From contig CP075365.1 of assembly GCA_019454125.1 (NCBI GenBank), positions 2,288,218 through 2,352,217 of the forward strand: a stretch of 64,000 nt of DNA. The letters are read 5' to 3'. The translations under genes and the position numbers were made by a program. The stretch comes from Fimbriimonadaceae bacterium (GTDB taxonomy: Bacteria; Armatimonadota; Fimbriimonadia; Fimbriimonadales; Fimbriimonadaceae). Under the pieces are notes generated by a model. The model was not told the DNA's origin. It saw nothing but the letters and a program-made list of their open reading frames with translations, and made no database searches. This document shows, in pieces, positions 54,806-62,867 of this stretch (position 1 is its first letter; every line of letters begins with the position of its first letter).

Positions 54806-55684
54806 TCACAACATGCCAAGAAGTTCCTTCGCGTTCTCGACGAACTGCTCTGTCTCTAACCGGAGCTCTTTACGCTCCTCGATCGAGTGCCCGAGCCACT
54901 CCTCAGCTCGAGGATCCCACGGCCAGAGTGGCGAGCACTCTTCGCCCAGCCAGATCTCGCTGGCGAGCCGGTCCGCGATGTGTACGCAGTACAACCGCTC
55001 GGAGTTTTCAACAGGATCGCCTTCTTCAAAGCCGTCATGGAGAGTAATCATTTCGCAAAGCGAAACCGGAAAGTTCCACTTCTCCGCCAAGACACCACCA
55101 AGATGGGCATGTGTGGTTCCCAGAATCCGTTGCTCGGTAGAGGACAGCGGCTCGGCCAAGCGGCTGGCTTCCGTCATAACCTGCGTGTAAGGTTGGTTGA
55201 ACAGCGTTAACAGGAAGAGCCGGCCAATGTCGTGCAGAAGGCCACCCACGAAAACCAACTCTTGCTCCTTTGTGCTGTGACCTTTTCTTCGGGAAATGGT
55301 CTGCGCACAAGTGGCAGATGCGAAACTGTGCTGCCAGAACTGCCGCTGGATCTCGATGATCCTGGGGTTGGGCGACGTCAGGGCATTGACGACGCCAATG
55401 CTCAGCACCAAGTTTCGTACTTGCTGGATTCCGAGGATTGCCAGGGCCTGGCCAATGCTGGCCACTTGCCGGGGTAGTCCAAAGTACGCGGAGTTCACGA
55501 CCTTGAACAGCTTCGTCGTGATGGAAGGATCCGTCGAGAGAAGTTTCTCGATCTCCGCCATGCTGACGTTCTCTTTGTCGGTCGCCTGCAGAACCTGTAC
55601 GATAACCGACGGCATAGCCGGAAGGTCGACCATCGCCTTTTCAATGTAGCGTTGGAGAAGGAAGTTTTCTGATCTTAATGCCAT
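54806..55684 (-). CDS. HDOD-domain signalling protein
   Basis: A 292-residue protein covered by one HDOD domain (about 15-210): LPAMPSVIVQVLQATDKENVSMAEIEKLLSTDPSITTKLFKVVNSAYFG is the diagnostic start, followed by GGLLHDIGRL. HDOD proteins link to HD-GYP and chemotaxis or motility control, and usually lack their own enzyme activity. It lies 12 bp after cheA on the same strand, so a role in the chemotaxis or flagellar pathway is likely. Confidence 0.9.
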   Translation of the reverse strand: MALRSENFLLQRYIEKAMVDLPAMPSVIVQVLQATDKENVSMAEIEKLLSTDPSITTKLFKVVNSAYFGLPRQVASIGQALAILGIQQVRNLVLSIGVVNALTSPNPRIIEIQRQFWQHSFASATCAQTISRRKGHSTKEQELVFVGGLLHDIGRLFLLTLFNQPYTQVMTEASRLAEPLSSTEQRILGTTHAHLGGVLAEKWNFPVSLCEMITLHDGFEEGDPVENSERLYCVHIADRLASEIWLGEECSPLWPWDPRAEEWLGHSIEERKELRLETEQFVENAKELLGML

Positions 55685-55696
55685 CTGGATACCCTA

Positions 55697-57700
55697 CTAG
55701 TCCGTATTCACTAAACTGTTCACGTCGACGATGAGGGCCACATTCCCATCACCAAGAATGGTGGCCCCGCTGACACCTGTTATGTCCCCACAGAATCGGC
55801 TAAGGGACTTGATGACCACTTCTTGTTCGCCGATGAGGCGATCGACGACCAACCCCAACCGCTTTTCTGCCAGTCCGACGATAACCACGAAGATCGGTTC
55901 ATCTTCTGGCGACCCGGTCTCGCTTGAAATGCCCAAAGTTGCGCCGAGCCTCATCAGCGGTGTGGTCATTCCACGGATGACGATAACTTCGTGCTGGTTA
56001 ACCGTCTGGATTTCCCGTCGCTCGATAAGGAGCGTCTCAATGACGGTGTCAAGGGGCAGCACATAAACATGTTTGCCAAGGCTTACTAAGAGTCCTCGAA
56101 TGATTGCGAGGGTAAGCGGTAATCGAAGGCTAAACTTTGTCCCTTCACCTATCTTGGTCTCGAGATCGATGATGCCACCGAGCTTCTGGAGGTTGGAACG
56201 GACAATGTCCATGCCTACCCCGCGGCCCGAGACCTCAGTAACCGCCTTAGCCGTGCTGACTCCGCTCGAGAAGATGAGCTGTAAAGCCTCCTTTTCGCTC
56301 ATGCGGTTTGCCTGCTCGGTAGTGATGAGGCCCTGGGAGATCGCCTTAGCCTTTAGTCTTTCACAATCGATGCCACGACCATCGTCCACAATCTCGATGA
56401 CAATGTGGTTTTCAAGATGGAGGGCCGAGAGCTTCACGACGCCCTGGGTCGGTTTCCCGACGGCCCGACGCTCGTCGGGAGTCTCAATGGCGTGGTCCAC
56501 ACAGTTTCGCAACATGTGCAAGAGCGGATCGCCGATGACCTCGATAACACTGCGGTCAAGCTCGGTCTCACCACCGCTCACCTCCATGCGCACATCTTTG
56601 CCAAGTTTTTGGGCCAAGTCGCGTACAACCCTTGGGAATCGGCTAAAAACGGTCTCGATCGGCATCATTCGGGCCTTCATAATCTGGTCTTGAAGGTCGC
56701 TTGTGATGCGGGCAATGTGGCTCACCGCCTCTGAGAGATGGTCGACACTGCGATCGTTATGGCGCGTTGCAAGCTCACTTGCAAGGCTTGCAAGCCGGGT
56801 TCGGTCAATGACCAGCTCACCGACAAGGTTCATCAAATTATCAAGGCGGGAAACATCGACCCTTACGGTCTGGCCCGTCTCGGTCTTTCGAGATGCTGTC
56901 GCGGCTTGAGGAGCAGGGGCCTGAGGCAGATTGTTTCGAACTGTGTCGGTCTGTTCCTGTCGCGCAGGCGGCTTCCATACCTGCAAGGTGAAGTTTGCAA
57001 CTTCGCTAATCTCTCGGAAGCTGGCCTTGAGGCTCTCCTCAGGGCTTTTTGAGTGGAAGTAGAGCTCGAAATGCTGTTCAAACTTCTCTTCTTCCAGTTT
57101 TTCCCGTGCGGGAACTGTGTGCAGAAGTTCGCCATCCTCTTGGATAGCGGAGATCGCCATAAATGCCCTCGCAAACTTCATCACACAGTCGGGCTGCAAC
57201 GTAAAGCTGGCGTGCCAGATCGGTGAGTCCTTCGACGCTATCCGCAGGGCGTCGATCTCTTCCTCTGGAAGCTCGCTCTTCACCGGTTTCGTGGTCGGCC
57301 CAGAAGCAACTTCGCCGCGCACAAAGCTTTCCAGTCTTTGGACAAGGGCAGTGCAATCGATCCCATCGCCTTGTCCCGCACTGATGCCCTCAGACATTTT
57401 GCGAAGGTTGTCCAAGCCTTCGAGCAAAGCGTTGGCGAGTTCCGTCCCAACCTCGAGCTGTCCGTTACGCAGTTGGTCGAGGACATCCTCCATCGAGTGC
57501 GTGAGGACGGCAAAGTTTTCAAAACCCATCGCACGGCCGCTCCCCTTCAACGTGTGGGCCGAGCGAAAGACGACCTGGAGCCTCTCGTCAGAAGGCTCCT
57601 GCTCCAGGAGCAAGAGTTCTCGCTCCAAGATGTCCAGCTGCTCTTCCGCTTCCTGGAGGAAAAGCTCCAGGTATTGGGACATGTCGAGTTCGGTCGCCAT
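55697..57700 (-). CDS. cheA: Chemotaxis histidine kinase CheA
   Basis: A 667-residue kinase: Hpt domain with phospho-accepting H49 (FRSAHTLKGSGRAMGF), a P2-like CheY/CheB-binding region (about 150-245), dimerisation domain (RVDVSRLDNLMNLVGELVIDR), HATPase with N box (MLRNCVDHAIETPDER), G1 box (IEIVDDGRGID) and G2 (GRGVGMDIVRSN), and a C-terminal CheW-like domain (about 530-667). It starts 17 bp after cheW. A full core kinase set for receptor clusters; receptors and CheY are outside the window. Confidence 0.96.
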   Translation of the reverse strand: MATELDMSQYLELFLQEAEEQLDILERELLLLEQEPSDERLQVVFRSAHTLKGSGRAMGFENFAVLTHSMEDVLDQLRNGQLEVGTELANALLEGLDNLRKMSEGISAGQGDGIDCTALVQRLESFVRGEVASGPTTKPVKSELPEEEIDALRIASKDSPIWHASFTLQPDCVMKFARAFMAISAIQEDGELLHTVPAREKLEEEKFEQHFELYFHSKSPEESLKASFREISEVANFTLQVWKPPARQEQTDTVRNNLPQAPAPQAATASRKTETGQTVRVDVSRLDNLMNLVGELVIDRTRLASLASELATRHNDRSVDHLSEAVSHIARITSDLQDQIMKARMMPIETVFSRFPRVVRDLAQKLGKDVRMEVSGGETELDRSVIEVIGDPLLHMLRNCVDHAIETPDERRAVGKPTQGVVKLSALHLENHIVIEIVDDGRGIDCERLKAKAISQGLITTEQANRMSEKEALQLIFSSGVSTAKAVTEVSGRGVGMDIVRSNLQKLGGIIDLETKIGEGTKFSLRLPLTLAIIRGLLVSLGKHVYVLPLDTVIETLLIERREIQTVNQHEVIVIRGMTTPLMRLGATLGISSETGSPEDEPIFVVIVGLAEKRLGLVVDRLIGEQEVVIKSLSRFCGDITGVSGATILGDGNVALIVDVNSLVNTD

Positions 57701-57717
57701 TCGGGTTCTTCGGAGTC

Positions 57718-58173
57718 TCAGGCCGCGAGGGCCTTATCAAGGTCGAGGAGCGTGACCAGCGAGTCGCCGCGCTTGGCGACCCCCCGGACGAAATCTGAGG
57801 CGGGGTCGCCTACCAGCGACGGAGTCTCATCGACCGTGTCGGACGAGATCGAGACGACCTCGCTCACAGCGTCGACGATGATGCCGACGTTGCCTCCGTC
57901 CGTCTCCACCACGATGATTCGGGTGAGGTCGGTCTCAGCGTTCGAGGCGAGGCGCAGGCGGGTGCGAAGGTCGACCACTGGGATCGTCTTGCCGCGAAGG
58001 TTGATAAGGCCGCGGATGTGCTCTTCGGTCCGGGGGATCGGGGTGATCTCCCGCATCCGAATGATCTCGTTCACCCGGAAGATATCGATCCCATAGGCCT
58101 CAGTGCCCATCTTGAAGACCACCATTTGTCGTTCGGTAGCCTCCGCCTTCACATCACCGATCAGGTCTGCCAT
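57718..58173 (-). CDS. cheW: Chemotaxis adaptor CheW
   Basis: A 151-residue CheW. ATG 58173 with GGAG 7 bases upstream is preferred to a TTG two codons earlier. Family blocks: QMVVFKMGTEAYGIDIFRVNEII, PRTEEHIRGLINLRGKTIPVVDLR, and the closing LLDLDKAL. It couples CheA to receptors. First gene of the cheW-cheA-HDOD-fliD block. GC content returns to the high level within or just before this gene. Confidence 0.95.
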   Translation of the reverse strand: MADLIGDVKAEATERQMVVFKMGTEAYGIDIFRVNEIIRMREITPIPRTEEHIRGLINLRGKTIPVVDLRTRLRLASNAETDLTRIIVVETDGGNVGIIVDAVSEVVSISSDTVDETPSLVGDPASDFVRGVAKRGDSLVTLLDLDKALAA

Positions 58174-58432
58174 TCGCAATCTCCTGACTTTCTTTTCGGC
58201 AAGTTTCCCGGCGTCCTTTATTGCCGGATCAGGGTTAAGTGGCGAACCAGCCTGGAGCCTGTCGAGGCCTAGGCCTACGAGCCCCTCTCAGAAAGGCGCC
58301 TTGACCGTTTCCGAATACGATGGCGTTGGACCTATCCCGTGCCTTATAGAGTTATTGAGTTGCGTTATAGGCGTCCGCCGAGTCCTGGCTCTTGACACCC
58401 AACGAGTTTTGGGGCTAGCCATCCATACAGGC

Positions 58433-58438
58433 TATACT
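58433..58438 (+). promoter_or_regulatory. Candidate -10 element of the surface-protein operon
   Basis: TATACT ends 8 bases before the ATG at 58447; TTGGGG at 58409-58414 is a weak -35 with an 18-bp spacer. A perfect TTGACA at 58392 is too far away (35 bp) to be its -35. Spacing suggests a leaderless message. The rest of the 270-bp gap to divergent cheW shows nothing else. Confidence 0.45.
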
Positions 58439-58446
58439 CTACGGTC

Positions 58447-59427
58447 ATGACGTCCATGCGAATCTGCTCGGTTCTGCTGGCGGCGGTTCTGGGAGGCATT
58501 GCGTGCGCCGCCACCCTCACCATAACTTCGCCGACCGAAGACGATTTCCTTGGTAAGACCAACAAGGTCAACTTCAACATTCGAGGCGCGATCCGCGAGG
58601 TCCGCGTCCGAGTCCGCGCCACCCTGAAGACCAACACCTCGGTCTTCGTCCAGGTCGAGAAGAGGTTCACGCCGAACATCGACGGCGAGGTCACGGACAG
58701 CATCGACCTCGACTTCGACGACTCGACCCCGGAAGGGATCTACACGATCCAGGTGACCCCGACGGAGCCGGGCAACACGTATAACGTCGTGCCCGAGATC
58801 GAGGTCACGGTCGACGTGCAGGAACCGAAGTTCATCAACGCCAACCCGGTCAACAACACGTTCGTCCGCGGGATCGTGCCGATCACGGCGAAGCTGCAAG
58901 AATCGAACGTCGACTTGTGGCGCGTGACCATTGACGGGTCCGGCATTCCGAACAACAGCGGCTCGGCCACGGACATCAACGTCCAGTGGAACACCGCTTC
59001 GATCCGGACAGACGGCTCCAAGACGATCTTGATCAAAGTCGATGACCTCGCGAAGAACTCGACCAGCCGAAGCGTCGACGTCACCCTAGACCGCCTGCGG
59101 CCGAACTCGGTGATCAACTCGCCTCGCGCGAACGCCTCGGTCAAGCCGAACACCGACATTGCGATCTTTGTGCGCGTCAACGACCAGTTCCAGGGCTCGG
59201 TCGCCTCGACCGGCATCGTAGTGGAAGCGCGGACTTTGCAGAACAAGTTCATAACCCGTGCGGCCCGCCGCAGTGCGGACGGCGACGGGAACGGGATAAA
59301 CTGGTTCGGAAGGCTAAGAGCGACACGAAGTTTGCCCTCGACGTTTAAACTCGTCGTCCTGGCAATCGATCGTGCCGGAAACTCGGCCGTGGTCCAAGAG
59401 ACCCGTGTCCGAATCGCGAATCGTTAG
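58447..59427 (+). CDS. Exported Ig-like domain protein of unknown function
   Basis: A 326-residue protein with a signal peptide (residues 1-21, ending ACA|ATLTITSPTEDD). The mature part reads as three Ig-like beta-sandwich repeats of about 90-100 residues (about 22-118, 119-215, 216-326), each with the SP/NP-turn and closing IKVDD- or VLAID-type strand (RTDGSKTILIKVDDLAKNS; LPSTFKLVVLAIDRAGNSA). No catalytic motif is seen. It is the first gene of an operon with an outer-membrane barrel and a caspase-like protein, so it may be a surface or periplasmic partner of these. A second ATG at codon 4 is possible. Confidence 0.82.
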   Translation: MTSMRICSVLLAAVLGGIACAATLTITSPTEDDFLGKTNKVNFNIRGAIREVRVRVRATLKTNTSVFVQVEKRFTPNIDGEVTDSIDLDFDDSTPEGIYTIQVTPTEPGNTYNVVPEIEVTVDVQEPKFINANPVNNTFVRGIVPITAKLQESNVDLWRVTIDGSGIPNNSGSATDINVQWNTASIRTDGSKTILIKVDDLAKNSTSRSVDVTLDRLRPNSVINSPRANASVKPNTDIAIFVRVNDQFQGSVASTGIVVEARTLQNKFITRAARRSADGDGNGINWFGRLRATRSLPSTFKLVVLAIDRAGNSAVVQETRVRIANR

Positions 59428-59487
59428 GACACTCCCGATACGTCGAATAAGATTGGGCGGAGTCCGCAAACAGGGAAAGGTGTGACA

Positions 59488-60615
59488 TTGACTGCATGGA
59501 AGCAAATCGTTAGCGTCGGGATCGGGGTCGGCATGGTGGGAGTTTCCCAGGCCCAGATCCCAGACCTTCTGAACGCGCTCGACGCGGGAGGGCGGGCTAT
59601 GGGTGTCGGCGGGGCGACCGCCTCGACGGACGGCAACACGTTCTCCGCCCTCAACAACCCGGCCGGCCTCGCCTACATCCCGAAGACGAGCATCGGGACC
59701 GCCTTTCGGAACCTGCCTGAGTCCGAGAACAGGATCTCGGGCGACTTCAACGACCCCACCTTCAGCACCAGCCGAAAGCACGGCCCCAGAAAGCTGACCC
59801 ACGCCGGGTTTGCGATGCCGTTCCGAGGAGGCGTGCTCGGGCTCTCCTACACCTTGGGCGGCTATATTGCCGACCGGACACGGGGCGACAACCTGACGAA
59901 CGGCAACCTCGTCAACCGGGGCTACGATTCCAACCTCACCGTACAGTACGACTTCTTCACGCTGGCCTATGGCAAACGCGCGGGGAGGAACAACTACGGC
60001 GTCGGAATCGTCTTCGCGAACCAGTACCTGCGCGACGACACCACCTATGTCGTCTTCGACAACAACCAGAACCAGATCGACGTCGTGCTGACGGACAACT
60101 CCGGCAACTCGCGGGGCATCGGGCTCGTCGCAGGATTCCAAACGAACCCGGACGACCGGAGCGTCTTCGGCGCGAGCATCCGCACGCCCATCGGGCTCAC
60201 CCGCAACGCGGCCACCGGCGCCTATAACAACCGCATCCCCGGCAAGGCCTCGATCGGCTACGCCACGCGGTCGGACTTCTTGCGCAACGGCCGGGACTTT
60301 TTTGCCTACGGGGCAGAGGTCGACTATTACTTCGCCGGTGACCGGGGCGGGCTGCTCGACCGGAAAGACGTGCTCGCCGGCGGCGTTGGTTTTGAGTACA
60401 ACACCCACCGATGGGGCGGAAGGGTCCCGTTCCGGGTTGGGTACCAGTTCTCACCCGAAGGCGGCAGGGGCTTCAGCGAAAGGAACGCGCTGACTTTTGG
60501 CCTTGGGTATCGTCCAGATAACAGCGACCTTGCGCTTGACTTGAACTTCGCCGCTCCTTCAGGAGGCGGAACGTTGGACACAGCGCTGTCGGTGGGCTAT
60601 CGGATCGGAAAGTAA
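59488..60615 (+). CDS. PorV/PorQ-like outer-membrane beta-barrel protein
   Basis: A 375-residue protein starting at TTG 59488, because GGGAAAGG lies 7 bases upstream (a GTG two codons earlier is too close to it). Signal peptide ends VSQA|Q. The mature N-terminus DAGGRAMGVGGATASTDGNTFSALNNPAGLAYI is the signature of PorV/PorQ/FadL-type barrels. The rest alternates amphipathic strands (YGVGIVFANQYLRDDTT, FRVGYQFSPEGG) and ends in an aromatic/hydrophobic strand (LSVGYRIGK). It shows that the cell has an outer membrane. It is 60 bp after the Ig-like gene and 15 bp before the caspase-like gene. Confidence 0.82.
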   Translation: MTAWKQIVSVGIGVGMVGVSQAQIPDLLNALDAGGRAMGVGGATASTDGNTFSALNNPAGLAYIPKTSIGTAFRNLPESENRISGDFNDPTFSTSRKHGPRKLTHAGFAMPFRGGVLGLSYTLGGYIADRTRGDNLTNGNLVNRGYDSNLTVQYDFFTLAYGKRAGRNNYGVGIVFANQYLRDDTTYVVFDNNQNQIDVVLTDNSGNSRGIGLVAGFQTNPDDRSVFGASIRTPIGLTRNAATGAYNNRIPGKASIGYATRSDFLRNGRDFFAYGAEVDYYFAGDRGGLLDRKDVLAGGVGFEYNTHRWGGRVPFRVGYQFSPEGGRGFSERNALTFGLGYRPDNSDLALDLNFAAPSGGGTLDTALSVGYRIGK

Positions 60616-60630
60616 GCTGAAGGATCAAGG

Positions 60631-61977
60631 ATGAGACTCAAAGCGCTGATGACTGCAGGGCTACTGGTCGGTGCCTCCGCACTGGCCCACGGCCAAGCTT
60701 GGAACGACGCCTATCAACGGGCACTCGCCGCGGCCCGGTCGCAAAACTGGATGGCCGCGCGGGACGCCTTCCAAGAAGCGATCGCGATCCGGCCGGAAGA
60801 CCAAGCGGGCCCGACCGTGCTGCCCGGCTCCGTCACCGAGCCCGTCCGTTGGCGAGACGGTTCCCCGTACTCGCCGAACTTCGGCTTCGCCTATGCGAAC
60901 TATAAGCTCGCCATGGCCGCGAGCGGCGATGACCGGAACGACTTCCTGAACGTTGCAGCCACGACCTTTGAGACCCTGCTGGCAAAGGGCCAAGCCTCGT
61001 CCGCGACCTACTACTTCTTGAACCGCGTCTACGGCGAACAGGGCCGGCCGGACAAGCAGCGCAACCTCGAGGAAGCGCTTAAGCAGACCGGGGCTGCCTG
61101 GAGAGTCGACACCGAGTTCGTCGCTCCCGAGGAGAAAGCGAGCGTCGTCAGCGCCACGCCTGCGGAGATCAAGCCGAACGAGCCCATAAAGGCAGGTGCC
61201 ACAACGACCCCCGGCGGCATCCTTACGCCGAAGGTGGCCGCAGAGAGCACAGCGCTTGTCGGACGTGTCCCCATCGTGCCCACGAAGTTCGCGCTCATCA
61301 TCGGCAACGGGCAGGGCAACATCGAGGGTGCCGGCCTCTCCTTCGCGAGCAGCGACGCGATGTTCCTTCGAGACGCCATCGTGCAGAACGCGGGCTACGA
61401 CGAAAAGAACGTCGAGCTGATCGTCGACGCCACCGCCGACCAGATGAGGATCGCGGCAGCGGCCCTCGCAGAACGCATGCCCGCCGACGCCAAGCTCATG
61501 GTGTTCTTCACCGGCGTAGGCGTGAACATCGACGGGCGCGACTACCTTGCAGGAATCGATGCGACTATGACCACGGACACGTCGCACATGCTCTCCAAGC
61601 AGGAGATGTACGGCATGTTCTTGAGCAAGGGAGCCCAAGTCTTCGCCTTTTTCCAGACGAACCGACCCGTGGTCGGTGGACGCTACTTCGGACAGGAGTA
61701 CCCGCTCGTCGGGGCTATCAGCCAAGCCCACGCAACCTCGCCCGACGCGCAATGTTTCGCGACCCAGAGCGAAGGCCGCCTGATCGGCGTCTACACAAAG
61801 GCTTTCGTGGACGTGGTGGGCACCTTGCGCTCGAACAACATCATCATCGGGGAATTCGGGTGGCAAGTCTTTAACGCCGTCCGCGGCGGATTGCCCGGAC
61901 AGCGGGATGGTGGTGGGTCCGTTCAGGTTCCCTCGCTGCCAGTAGTCCGATACATGAGCCCGAGCGCCGGCTTCTAA
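60631..61977 (+). CDS. Exported TPR protein with catalytically dead caspase-like domain
   Basis: A 448-residue exported protein. Signal peptide (about 1-22, ALAHG|Q), then a TPR-like helical part (about 23-150: AYQRALAAARSQNWMAARDAFQEAI), a linker rich in Thr/Pro, and a caspase-like fold from about 210 (TKFALIIGNGQGNIEG, LSFASSDAMFLRDAIVQNAGY). Where active caspase-like peptidases have GHG the chain reads FFTGVGVNIDGRDYLAG, and where they have DACR it reads AFFQTNRP, so both catalytic residues are gone. It therefore likely binds rather than cuts. It is coupled to the upstream barrel gene (15 bp). Confidence 0.8.
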   Translation: MRLKALMTAGLLVGASALAHGQAWNDAYQRALAAARSQNWMAARDAFQEAIAIRPEDQAGPTVLPGSVTEPVRWRDGSPYSPNFGFAYANYKLAMAASGDDRNDFLNVAATTFETLLAKGQASSATYYFLNRVYGEQGRPDKQRNLEEALKQTGAAWRVDTEFVAPEEKASVVSATPAEIKPNEPIKAGATTTPGGILTPKVAAESTALVGRVPIVPTKFALIIGNGQGNIEGAGLSFASSDAMFLRDAIVQNAGYDEKNVELIVDATADQMRIAAAALAERMPADAKLMVFFTGVGVNIDGRDYLAGIDATMTTDTSHMLSKQEMYGMFLSKGAQVFAFFQTNRPVVGGRYFGQEYPLVGAISQAHATSPDAQCFATQSEGRLIGVYTKAFVDVVGTLRSNNIIIGEFGWQVFNAVRGGLPGQRDGGGSVQVPSLPVVRYMSPSAGF

Positions 61978-61994: not shown

Positions 61995-62867
61995 ATGACT
62001 TCTGCGAGAGGGCGCTCGGATCTGCCTGCCCTTGAGCCCGGTGCGGTCGCCCTCATGCGCCATTTCGAGGGCGACTTTGCCGATCGGTACATCACTGAAC
62101 TGCTGGTCGGTCGGATCCGTCGGACACTCGGCTGGAGCGTCCCCGACAAAAGCAACCTTGCAGAGCTTCTTACCGACCCCTACAAGGCGCTGGCCGCCTT
62201 CTATGGCCATTACGCCTTCTCCCGCCGGGGCAAGGAGCGGGACCTTGTCGGAGGACTCGCCATTGGCGCCCTCAACCGCCTAGCCGAACAAACGGGCTTT
62301 GAGGAAGCCCTCCAAATGCCGGACGGCTCCAAGCTTTGGGAGGCCTTCTGCAAGGTCTGCGAAGAGAGGGGCAAGAATCCGACCGAAGCCCAGAACCGCG
62401 GGCCCATCCAGGGCATGCTGGAGCTTGTTCAAGAGATCCATCGCTTGGATCCTTCGCTCTCCGTGAGCACCTGGGTAGCGAGAGACGTGGAGAAGACCGG
62501 GCTCGTGGAGCCCCAGTACCTGCGCATGGTCGATATCCGCGGCCTGGGCCCGAAAGGCACCTCGACCTTCCTGCGAGACATGGTCTGGCTGTACGACGTG
62601 GAGGAAAAGGCAAACCCTGCCGAGCGGATCTTCGTCCAACCGATCGACCGGTGGCAAAGACAGATCGTCAAGCACGTCGTCCCGGCCGAAGACCAGGGGG
62701 CACGCGCCGATTGGGTGATCGCCGGCAAACTCGCGAAGTACACGCGCCGAGCAGGGGTCAGCGGAGTGCGCTTCAACATGGGCGTGACCTTTTTCGGTCA
62801 AAGGATCGTCCACAAGCCGGAGGACTTCGAAGGGGCCGTCCGAACGCTCCTGGTCGGACTTCAGTAA
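61995..62867 (+). CDS. Cytoplasmic protein of unknown function, HhH-like
   Basis: A 290-residue soluble helical protein, 17 bp after the pseudo-caspase gene. No family is recognised with confidence. The segment MVDIRGLGPKGTSTFLRDM (about 178-196) looks like a helix-hairpin-helix loop, and IFVQPIDRWQRQIV (about 211-224) occupies the place of the VD.H.xR block of HhH-GPD base-excision glycosylases, but the usual catalytic pattern is not clear. It may be a DNA-binding or repair protein. Operon position next to surface proteins may be accidental. Convergent with coaX, 7 bp apart (CCCGGGC). Confidence 0.65.
   Translation: MTSARGRSDLPALEPGAVALMRHFEGDFADRYITELLVGRIRRTLGWSVPDKSNLAELLTDPYKALAAFYGHYAFSRRGKERDLVGGLAIGALNRLAEQTGFEEALQMPDGSKLWEAFCKVCEERGKNPTEAQNRGPIQGMLELVQEIHRLDPSLSVSTWVARDVEKTGLVEPQYLRMVDIRGLGPKGTSTFLRDMVWLYDVEEKANPAERIFVQPIDRWQRQIVKHVVPAEDQGARADWVIAGKLAKYTRRAGVSGVRFNMGVTFFGQRIVHKPEDFEGAVRTLLVGLQ

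Follow-up and report, generated by a model that had tools for sequence, protein, structure and literature searches.

An operon of Fimbriimonadales encoding an Ig-like protein, a PorV/FadL-type barrel and a caspase-fold pseudoenzyme

The window analysed here is a stretch of 64,000 nucleotides from a Fimbriimonadaceae bacterium (assembly GCA_019454125.1, contig CP075365.1, positions 2,288,218 to 2,352,217), and on its forward strand lie three consecutive genes for an exported Ig-like protein, a predicted outer-membrane beta-barrel and an exported protein with TPR-like repeats and a caspase fold (Table 1). The gap between the Ig gene and the barrel gene is 54 bp, or 60 bp if translation of the barrel starts from the in-frame TTG at 59488, and the barrel gene is followed after 15 bp by the caspase-fold gene and this after 17 bp by a further ORF. 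Sec-type N-terminal signal sequences, judged by eye, were present on all three proteins in the window and in relatives, and the caspase-fold protein has no predicted membrane segment beyond its signal sequence. The preliminary description of this DNA had placed three exported products in one cluster, which agrees with these same-strand ORFs and their signals, and had placed them behind one TATACT promoter. The hexamer is indeed there before the first ATG, but a promoter scan found no -35 or sigma-70 match near it and just two further loci (L027 and L050) have it at a similar distance; it is thus a weak candidate which, if real, would give a near-leaderless transcript. For the downstream ORF, searches of Pfam, NCBIfam and PHROG gave nothing above cut-off; it is co-directional and syntenic with the trio among relatives and is probably co-transcribed with it. 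This ORF sits between the trio and a type III pantothenate kinase gene and shows by eye a helix-hairpin-helix-like stretch. Upstream of the trio, HDOD, CheA and CheW genes occupy window positions 54806-58179 on the opposite strand, CheW being kept near the operon in many relatives, and in several relatives (among them L058, L123 and L039) a HAD/Cof-type phosphatase gene lies 5' of the operon. When the upstream HAD gene and the downstream ORF were checked as members of the operon both were syntenic with it, and there was no evidence of a common function.

Table 1. Coordinates of the operon and its features in the window
Feature	Position	Strand	Basis
Exported Ig-like protein, 326 aa	58447..59427	+	ORF; Big_13/Big_7 matches below cut-off
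Outer-membrane beta-barrel (predicted), PorV/FadL superfamily, 377 aa	59482..60615	+	GTG start; AF2 and fold matches
Barrel strands (predicted), 14	59686-60606	+	AF2; N-terminal plug holds NPAG motif
Exported TPR-like plus C14 caspase-fold pseudoenzyme, 448 aa	60631..61977	+	AF2; MALT1 fold and profile matches
Ig protein C-terminal domain	59089-59424	+	One match in the window genome (G000)
Catalytic-His position, Val296 here	61516..61518	+	Alignment to MALT1
Catalytic-Cys loop position, residues 341-345, FQTNR	61651..61665	+	Alignment; Arg345 invariant 60/60
C-terminal Phe448	61972..61974	+	Conserved in orthologue alignments
Downstream ORF, family unassigned by profile searches	61995..62867	+	ORF list; synteny
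TATACT, possible -10 element, 8 bp before first ATG	58433..58438	+	Sequence; weak

The AF2 model of the caspase-fold protein (pLDDT 86) predicts TPR-like helical repeats at about residues 23-175 and a caspase fold at 215-448, joined by a linker of low confidence. The best fold match was MALT1 (Z 22.6, rmsd 3.0 over 211 residues), plant metacaspases matched at Z 20.7, and the profile of the family also matched MALT1 by sequence at 2.8e-6. Pfam C14 matched 14 of 22 orthologues at E<=0.001 and exceeded its cut-off in orthologues such as those of G001, G007, G008 and G038, and in the window genome there was no C14 match by Pfam. With the Pfam C25 model (PF01364) no match was obtained for the window protein at E<=1 or for the 22 orthologues at 0.001; C25 structures were absent from the listed fold matches as well, which was not used as a test. 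The domain is therefore of the C14 type (MALT1/metacaspase fold) and not of the C25/PorU type. Several relatives have more than one C14 caspase gene, and the GHG motif is intact in many of these; seven C14 matches were counted in G018.

The caspase fold had been described earlier as dead, and so it appears throughout the family, as the His-Cys dyad was absent in all 60 distinct orthologues. Position 296 is never His and is Ala or Val in most of them; the Cys position falls at residues 342-344 by the MALT1 alignment, ambiguous by one or two, and a lone Cys at 341 or 343 was seen in 4 of the 60, never together with the His. Invariant positions in the domain include D304, R345, F353, G354 and G361. 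The mean entropy of the pseudo-active-site loops was 1.55 vs 1.76 in the rest of the domain, and because they are only slightly more conserved this suggests at most, from sequence, that they may form a binding groove. The protein ends in Phe in 38 of 39 and in 47 of 48 orthologues in two counts, and in every alignment row that covers the end; Phe448, on a soluble exported protein, resembles the C-termini of outer-membrane barrels.

Conservation was examined in 61 genomes comprising the window genome, its family and its order, where matches were found to the caspase-fold protein in 44, to the barrel in 40 and to the Ig protein in 39, though a few of these hits are weak and fall on other caspase or Ig proteins. 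Among 48 named loci, whose records are with few exceptions titled as Armatimonadota, Fimbriimonadaceae or Chthonomonas MAGs, 41 had the complete trio in order, its genes as a rule close together or overlapping; four more are accounted for by contig edges or an assembly gap. This association is far above chance, and most Fimbriimonadales examined outside family f2 carry the operon; the neighbourhood of the three genes, offered earlier as a check on the grouping, is thus conserved. One record (L091, JADZEW010000008) is titled Methanoregulaceae archaeon and is probably a mis-titled bin (compare G011:C8 in the family of the window). An apparent 858-aa fusion of barrel and caspase (G007/L052) was rejected, as an assembly gap had been translated as X residues. 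Orthologues of the caspase-fold protein and the barrel were absent from all sampled genomes of f2, and in the phylum sample ten genomes from the family of the window lacked the barrel, among them the one-contig 5.2 Mb genome G175. Within the order, no sampled genome had the barrel, or a full Ig orthologue, without the caspase-fold gene. The distance-correlation among the trio genes was no higher than with the neighbouring ORF and does not discriminate.

The caspase-fold gene was found without the Ig and barrel genes in three loci, namely L106 (G020), L116 (G031) and L123. In L123 and in L058/L116, which are one contig of G031, it directly follows the HAD-type gene and both other genes are gone from the expected site, so that this pair is missing as a whole; the caspase-fold gene standing alone therefore points to some independent use of it, or to a remnant. 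When the phylum of the window, Armatimonadota, was scanned with the barrel profile, extended barrel relatives outside the order were found only in the distant families f28 and f11. When 251 genomes were searched in return with a profile made from these barrels, the only matches at 1e-15 were the Fimbriimonadales barrels, aligned over most of their length. In 5 of 5 loci the f28/f11 barrel lies directly 3' of a gene for an exported multi-Ig protein, of 1168-1324 aa where complete. The gene in third place in f28 codes for a large protein, about 1400-1500 aa long and seen only in that family, whose caspase domain lies towards the C-terminal end and retains the FAGHG and DACR motifs; in the f11 loci no caspase lies beside the pair, and the intact caspase of L127 (G039), on a separate contig, could not be assigned to the operon. 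The Ig-barrel pair is therefore the wider unit, and its association with a caspase either goes back to a common ancestor or arose on two occasions. In the caspase-domain tree the Fimbriimonadales pseudo-caspases form one clade (100/100) with the f28 enzymes elsewhere; a joint clade of the two was not rejected (AU p 0.254), and their N-terminal regions did not align by profile.

These loci lead to an alternative, that the Ig protein and the barrel are the working pair and that the pseudo-caspase is a separate periplasmic protein, a peptide or stress sensor, on the same transcript. The three loci with the caspase-fold gene alone and the f11 pair with no adjacent caspase are what would be expected of it. 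It is harder to reconcile with the otherwise near-constant adjacency across the order, where no barrel occurs without the caspase-fold gene, and with the caspase that also follows the pair in f28, and we consider it rather unlikely while taking it seriously.

The barrel itself can be read in more than one way. Its AF2 model (pLDDT 89) has 14 strands and an N-terminal plug, and among solved folds it comes closest to E. coli FadL, with Z 33.1 and an rmsd of 3.0 over 327 residues; BamG-type barrels of the Bacteroidota BAM (Z 27.5-28.6) and then PorV (Z 25.8-26.2) come next. By sequence, the NCBIfam model PorV_fam (NF033709, PorV/PorQ) matched 21 of 22 members at E<=0.001, always below its cut-off, the best at 7e-13 (48.8 bits) and the window barrel at 1.8e-8 (34.3 bits vs a cut-off of 90), so that the PorV-like character claimed for the barrel earlier is supported at this level. 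A barrel profile run against PDB sequences gave PorV at 0.017 and a FadL homologue at 0.076, both through the NPA motif, and one chance match. Thus the barrel is nearest to PorV/PorQ by sequence, far below cut-off, and nearest to FadL by fold, and it is fair to call it, on its predicted model, a member of the superfamily of 14-strand plugged FadL/PorV folds with the subgroup left open. In the preliminary description the proposal was said to fall if the barrel belonged to the FadL group and the caspase-fold protein was cytoplasmic; the fold is indeed nearer FadL (Z 33 vs 26 for PorV), but the caspase-fold protein is exported.

It can be argued from these data that the barrel takes up hydrophobic compounds as a FadL/TodX-like channel, with the Ig protein and the pseudo-caspase as periplasmic accessories, as FadL is the top fold match, ahead of PorV, the N-terminal hatch carries an NPA motif, and Pfam Toluene_X (PF03349) matches 7 of 22 members at E<=0.001, with the window protein below the Pfam cut-off. 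This we find distinctly unlikely, because the sequence models favour PorV/PorQ in 21 of 22 members over NCBIfam FadL in 1 of 22, and because we know of no FadL that is constantly paired with an Ig protein and a caspase-fold protein. Less probable still is that the barrel is a BamG-like accessory of BAM with the Ig protein as its outer canopy partner, like BamG and BamH in Bacteroidota. BamG is a FadL-fold barrel whose extracellular part anchors a surface lipoprotein (PMC12611786), the BamG-type fold matches fit such a role, and one related f11 barrel matched NCBIfam BamG at 6e-6, below its cut-off. However, none of the 22 members matched the BamG model (NF053685) at 0.001, the mature N-terminus of the barrel starts about where that of FadL does whereas the N-terminal tail of BamG is long, and the barrel is missing from the ten relatives in its own family and from all sampled f2 members, whereas BamG is conserved across Bacteroidota and essential in F. 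johnsoniae (PMC12611786).

The window Ig protein matched Pfam Big_13 at 1.2e-4 and Big_7 at 2.4e-3, both below cut-off, and its orthologue in L038 has several Ig domains with strong Pfam matches. Its C-terminal domain is single-copy in the window genome and in nearly all relatives that have it, and hence there is no cargo family for the system.

That the trio belongs to a genuine type IX secretion system is very improbable, as the adjacency of a PorV-like barrel and a caspase-fold protein which invites this reading is outweighed by a caspase that is C14 and inactive and by a window genome with no C25 protein (PF01364), no T9SS C-terminal domain (TIGR04183) and no over-cut-off match to SprA (TIGR04189). 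The C25 model exceeded its cut-off in 3 of 41 relatives and TIGR04183 did so in a control, showing that these searches work; the SprA model gave no over-cut-off match in 41 genomes in a search that had no positive control. Pieces of up to about 120 residues that matched SprA lay inside ORFs of mostly about 500-1200 residues and are not SprA. The preliminary description had set the trio beside PorV and PorU and yet had called it distinct from the type IX system; the distinction is in line with these results, and the PorU link is not supported, PorU and the gingipains being C25 proteins. With no SprA-like pore found that could carry the Ig protein through the outer membrane, this protein may stay periplasmic.

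The reading that we prefer, tentatively and with rather less than even confidence, is that the three genes specify an outer-membrane complex devoted to a single partner protein of its own. Within the Type 9 translocon, PorV uses its extracellular loops to bind Ig-fold CTDs (PMC10994853, PMC4804311), and by analogy with PorV and BamG the barrel would hold the adjacent Ig protein, its sole client, as a carrier or anchor of a beta-sandwich protein, possibly at the surface. As a periplasmic protein, the pseudo-caspase would use its inactivated groove to bind a peptide or protein tail and would serve as adaptor or checkpoint during assembly; an intact caspase in this place, such as f28 keeps together with its long multi-Ig protein, would act as the processing enzyme on the Ig protein or on the complex. 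This reading is favoured by the trio order in 41 of 48 loci, by the signal sequences on all three proteins, by the constant company of the caspase-fold gene wherever the order has the barrel, by the joint loss of Ig and barrel genes, by the recurrence of the pair in f28 and f11 and by the caspase as third gene in f28; against it are the FadL transporter as nearest solved fold, the caspase-fold gene alone in three loci, a distance-correlation no higher than with the neighbouring ORF and the lack of a SprA-like pore. The attachment or assembly machine proposed earlier is accordingly kept as a hypothesis. A more specific version, which we think unlikely, is a compact surface-display complex outside T9SS, confined to Armatimonadota as far as searched, with a PorV-type barrel as the carrier of one dedicated Ig-repeat protein; processing would fall to a C14 caspase that is still active in one family and has become a pseudoenzyme adaptor in Fimbriimonadales.

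Among known systems, PorV/PorQ (NF033709; PorV of the Type 9 translocon, 6h3i/8gl6) shares with the barrel the 14-strand plugged fold, the N-terminal NPA-type motif and the link to an Ig fold, and differs in that the window barrel is far below its cut-off in a genome without SprA and T9SS CTD cargo. FadL/TodX (PF03349) shares the closest solved fold, the position of the mature N-terminus and the NPA hatch, whereas the window barrel is below the Pfam cut-off and stands in an operon with Ig and caspase-fold partners. BamG/BamH likewise combines a FadL-fold barrel with an exported extracellular partner, but here the trio is not universal in its group, the Ig partner has no clear lipobox and there is no support from the BamG profile. 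The PorU/gingipain C25 sortase resembles the caspase-fold protein in having a caspase-like fold beside a PorV-type barrel, and differs from it, as this one is C14 and inactive and has no CTD cargo. Bacterial pseudo-orthocaspases have a C14 fold that has lost the His-Cys dyad, some with TPRs and signal-like N-termini; they were described in 2019 mainly from Alphaproteobacteria and Cyanobacteria, with YS, YA and FS dyads, and Armatimonadota are not mentioned (PMC6426788). The protein studied here is like them in the lost dyad, and differs in having mostly Ala or Val at the His site, an invariant Arg and a place in a barrel operon. In the literature searched we found no paper on an operon uniting a pseudo-orthocaspase, a PorV/FadL-type barrel and an Ig protein, and while the component folds are already known, their combination in one operon across an order looks undescribed. 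The operon looks like an envelope assembly or display complex and not a type IX secretion system. If this is real, PorV/FadL-type barrels carry or anchor beta-sandwich proteins outside Bacteroidota and without a SprA pore, and a bacterial pseudo-caspase gains a clear genetic context at the outer membrane in which its role is directly testable.
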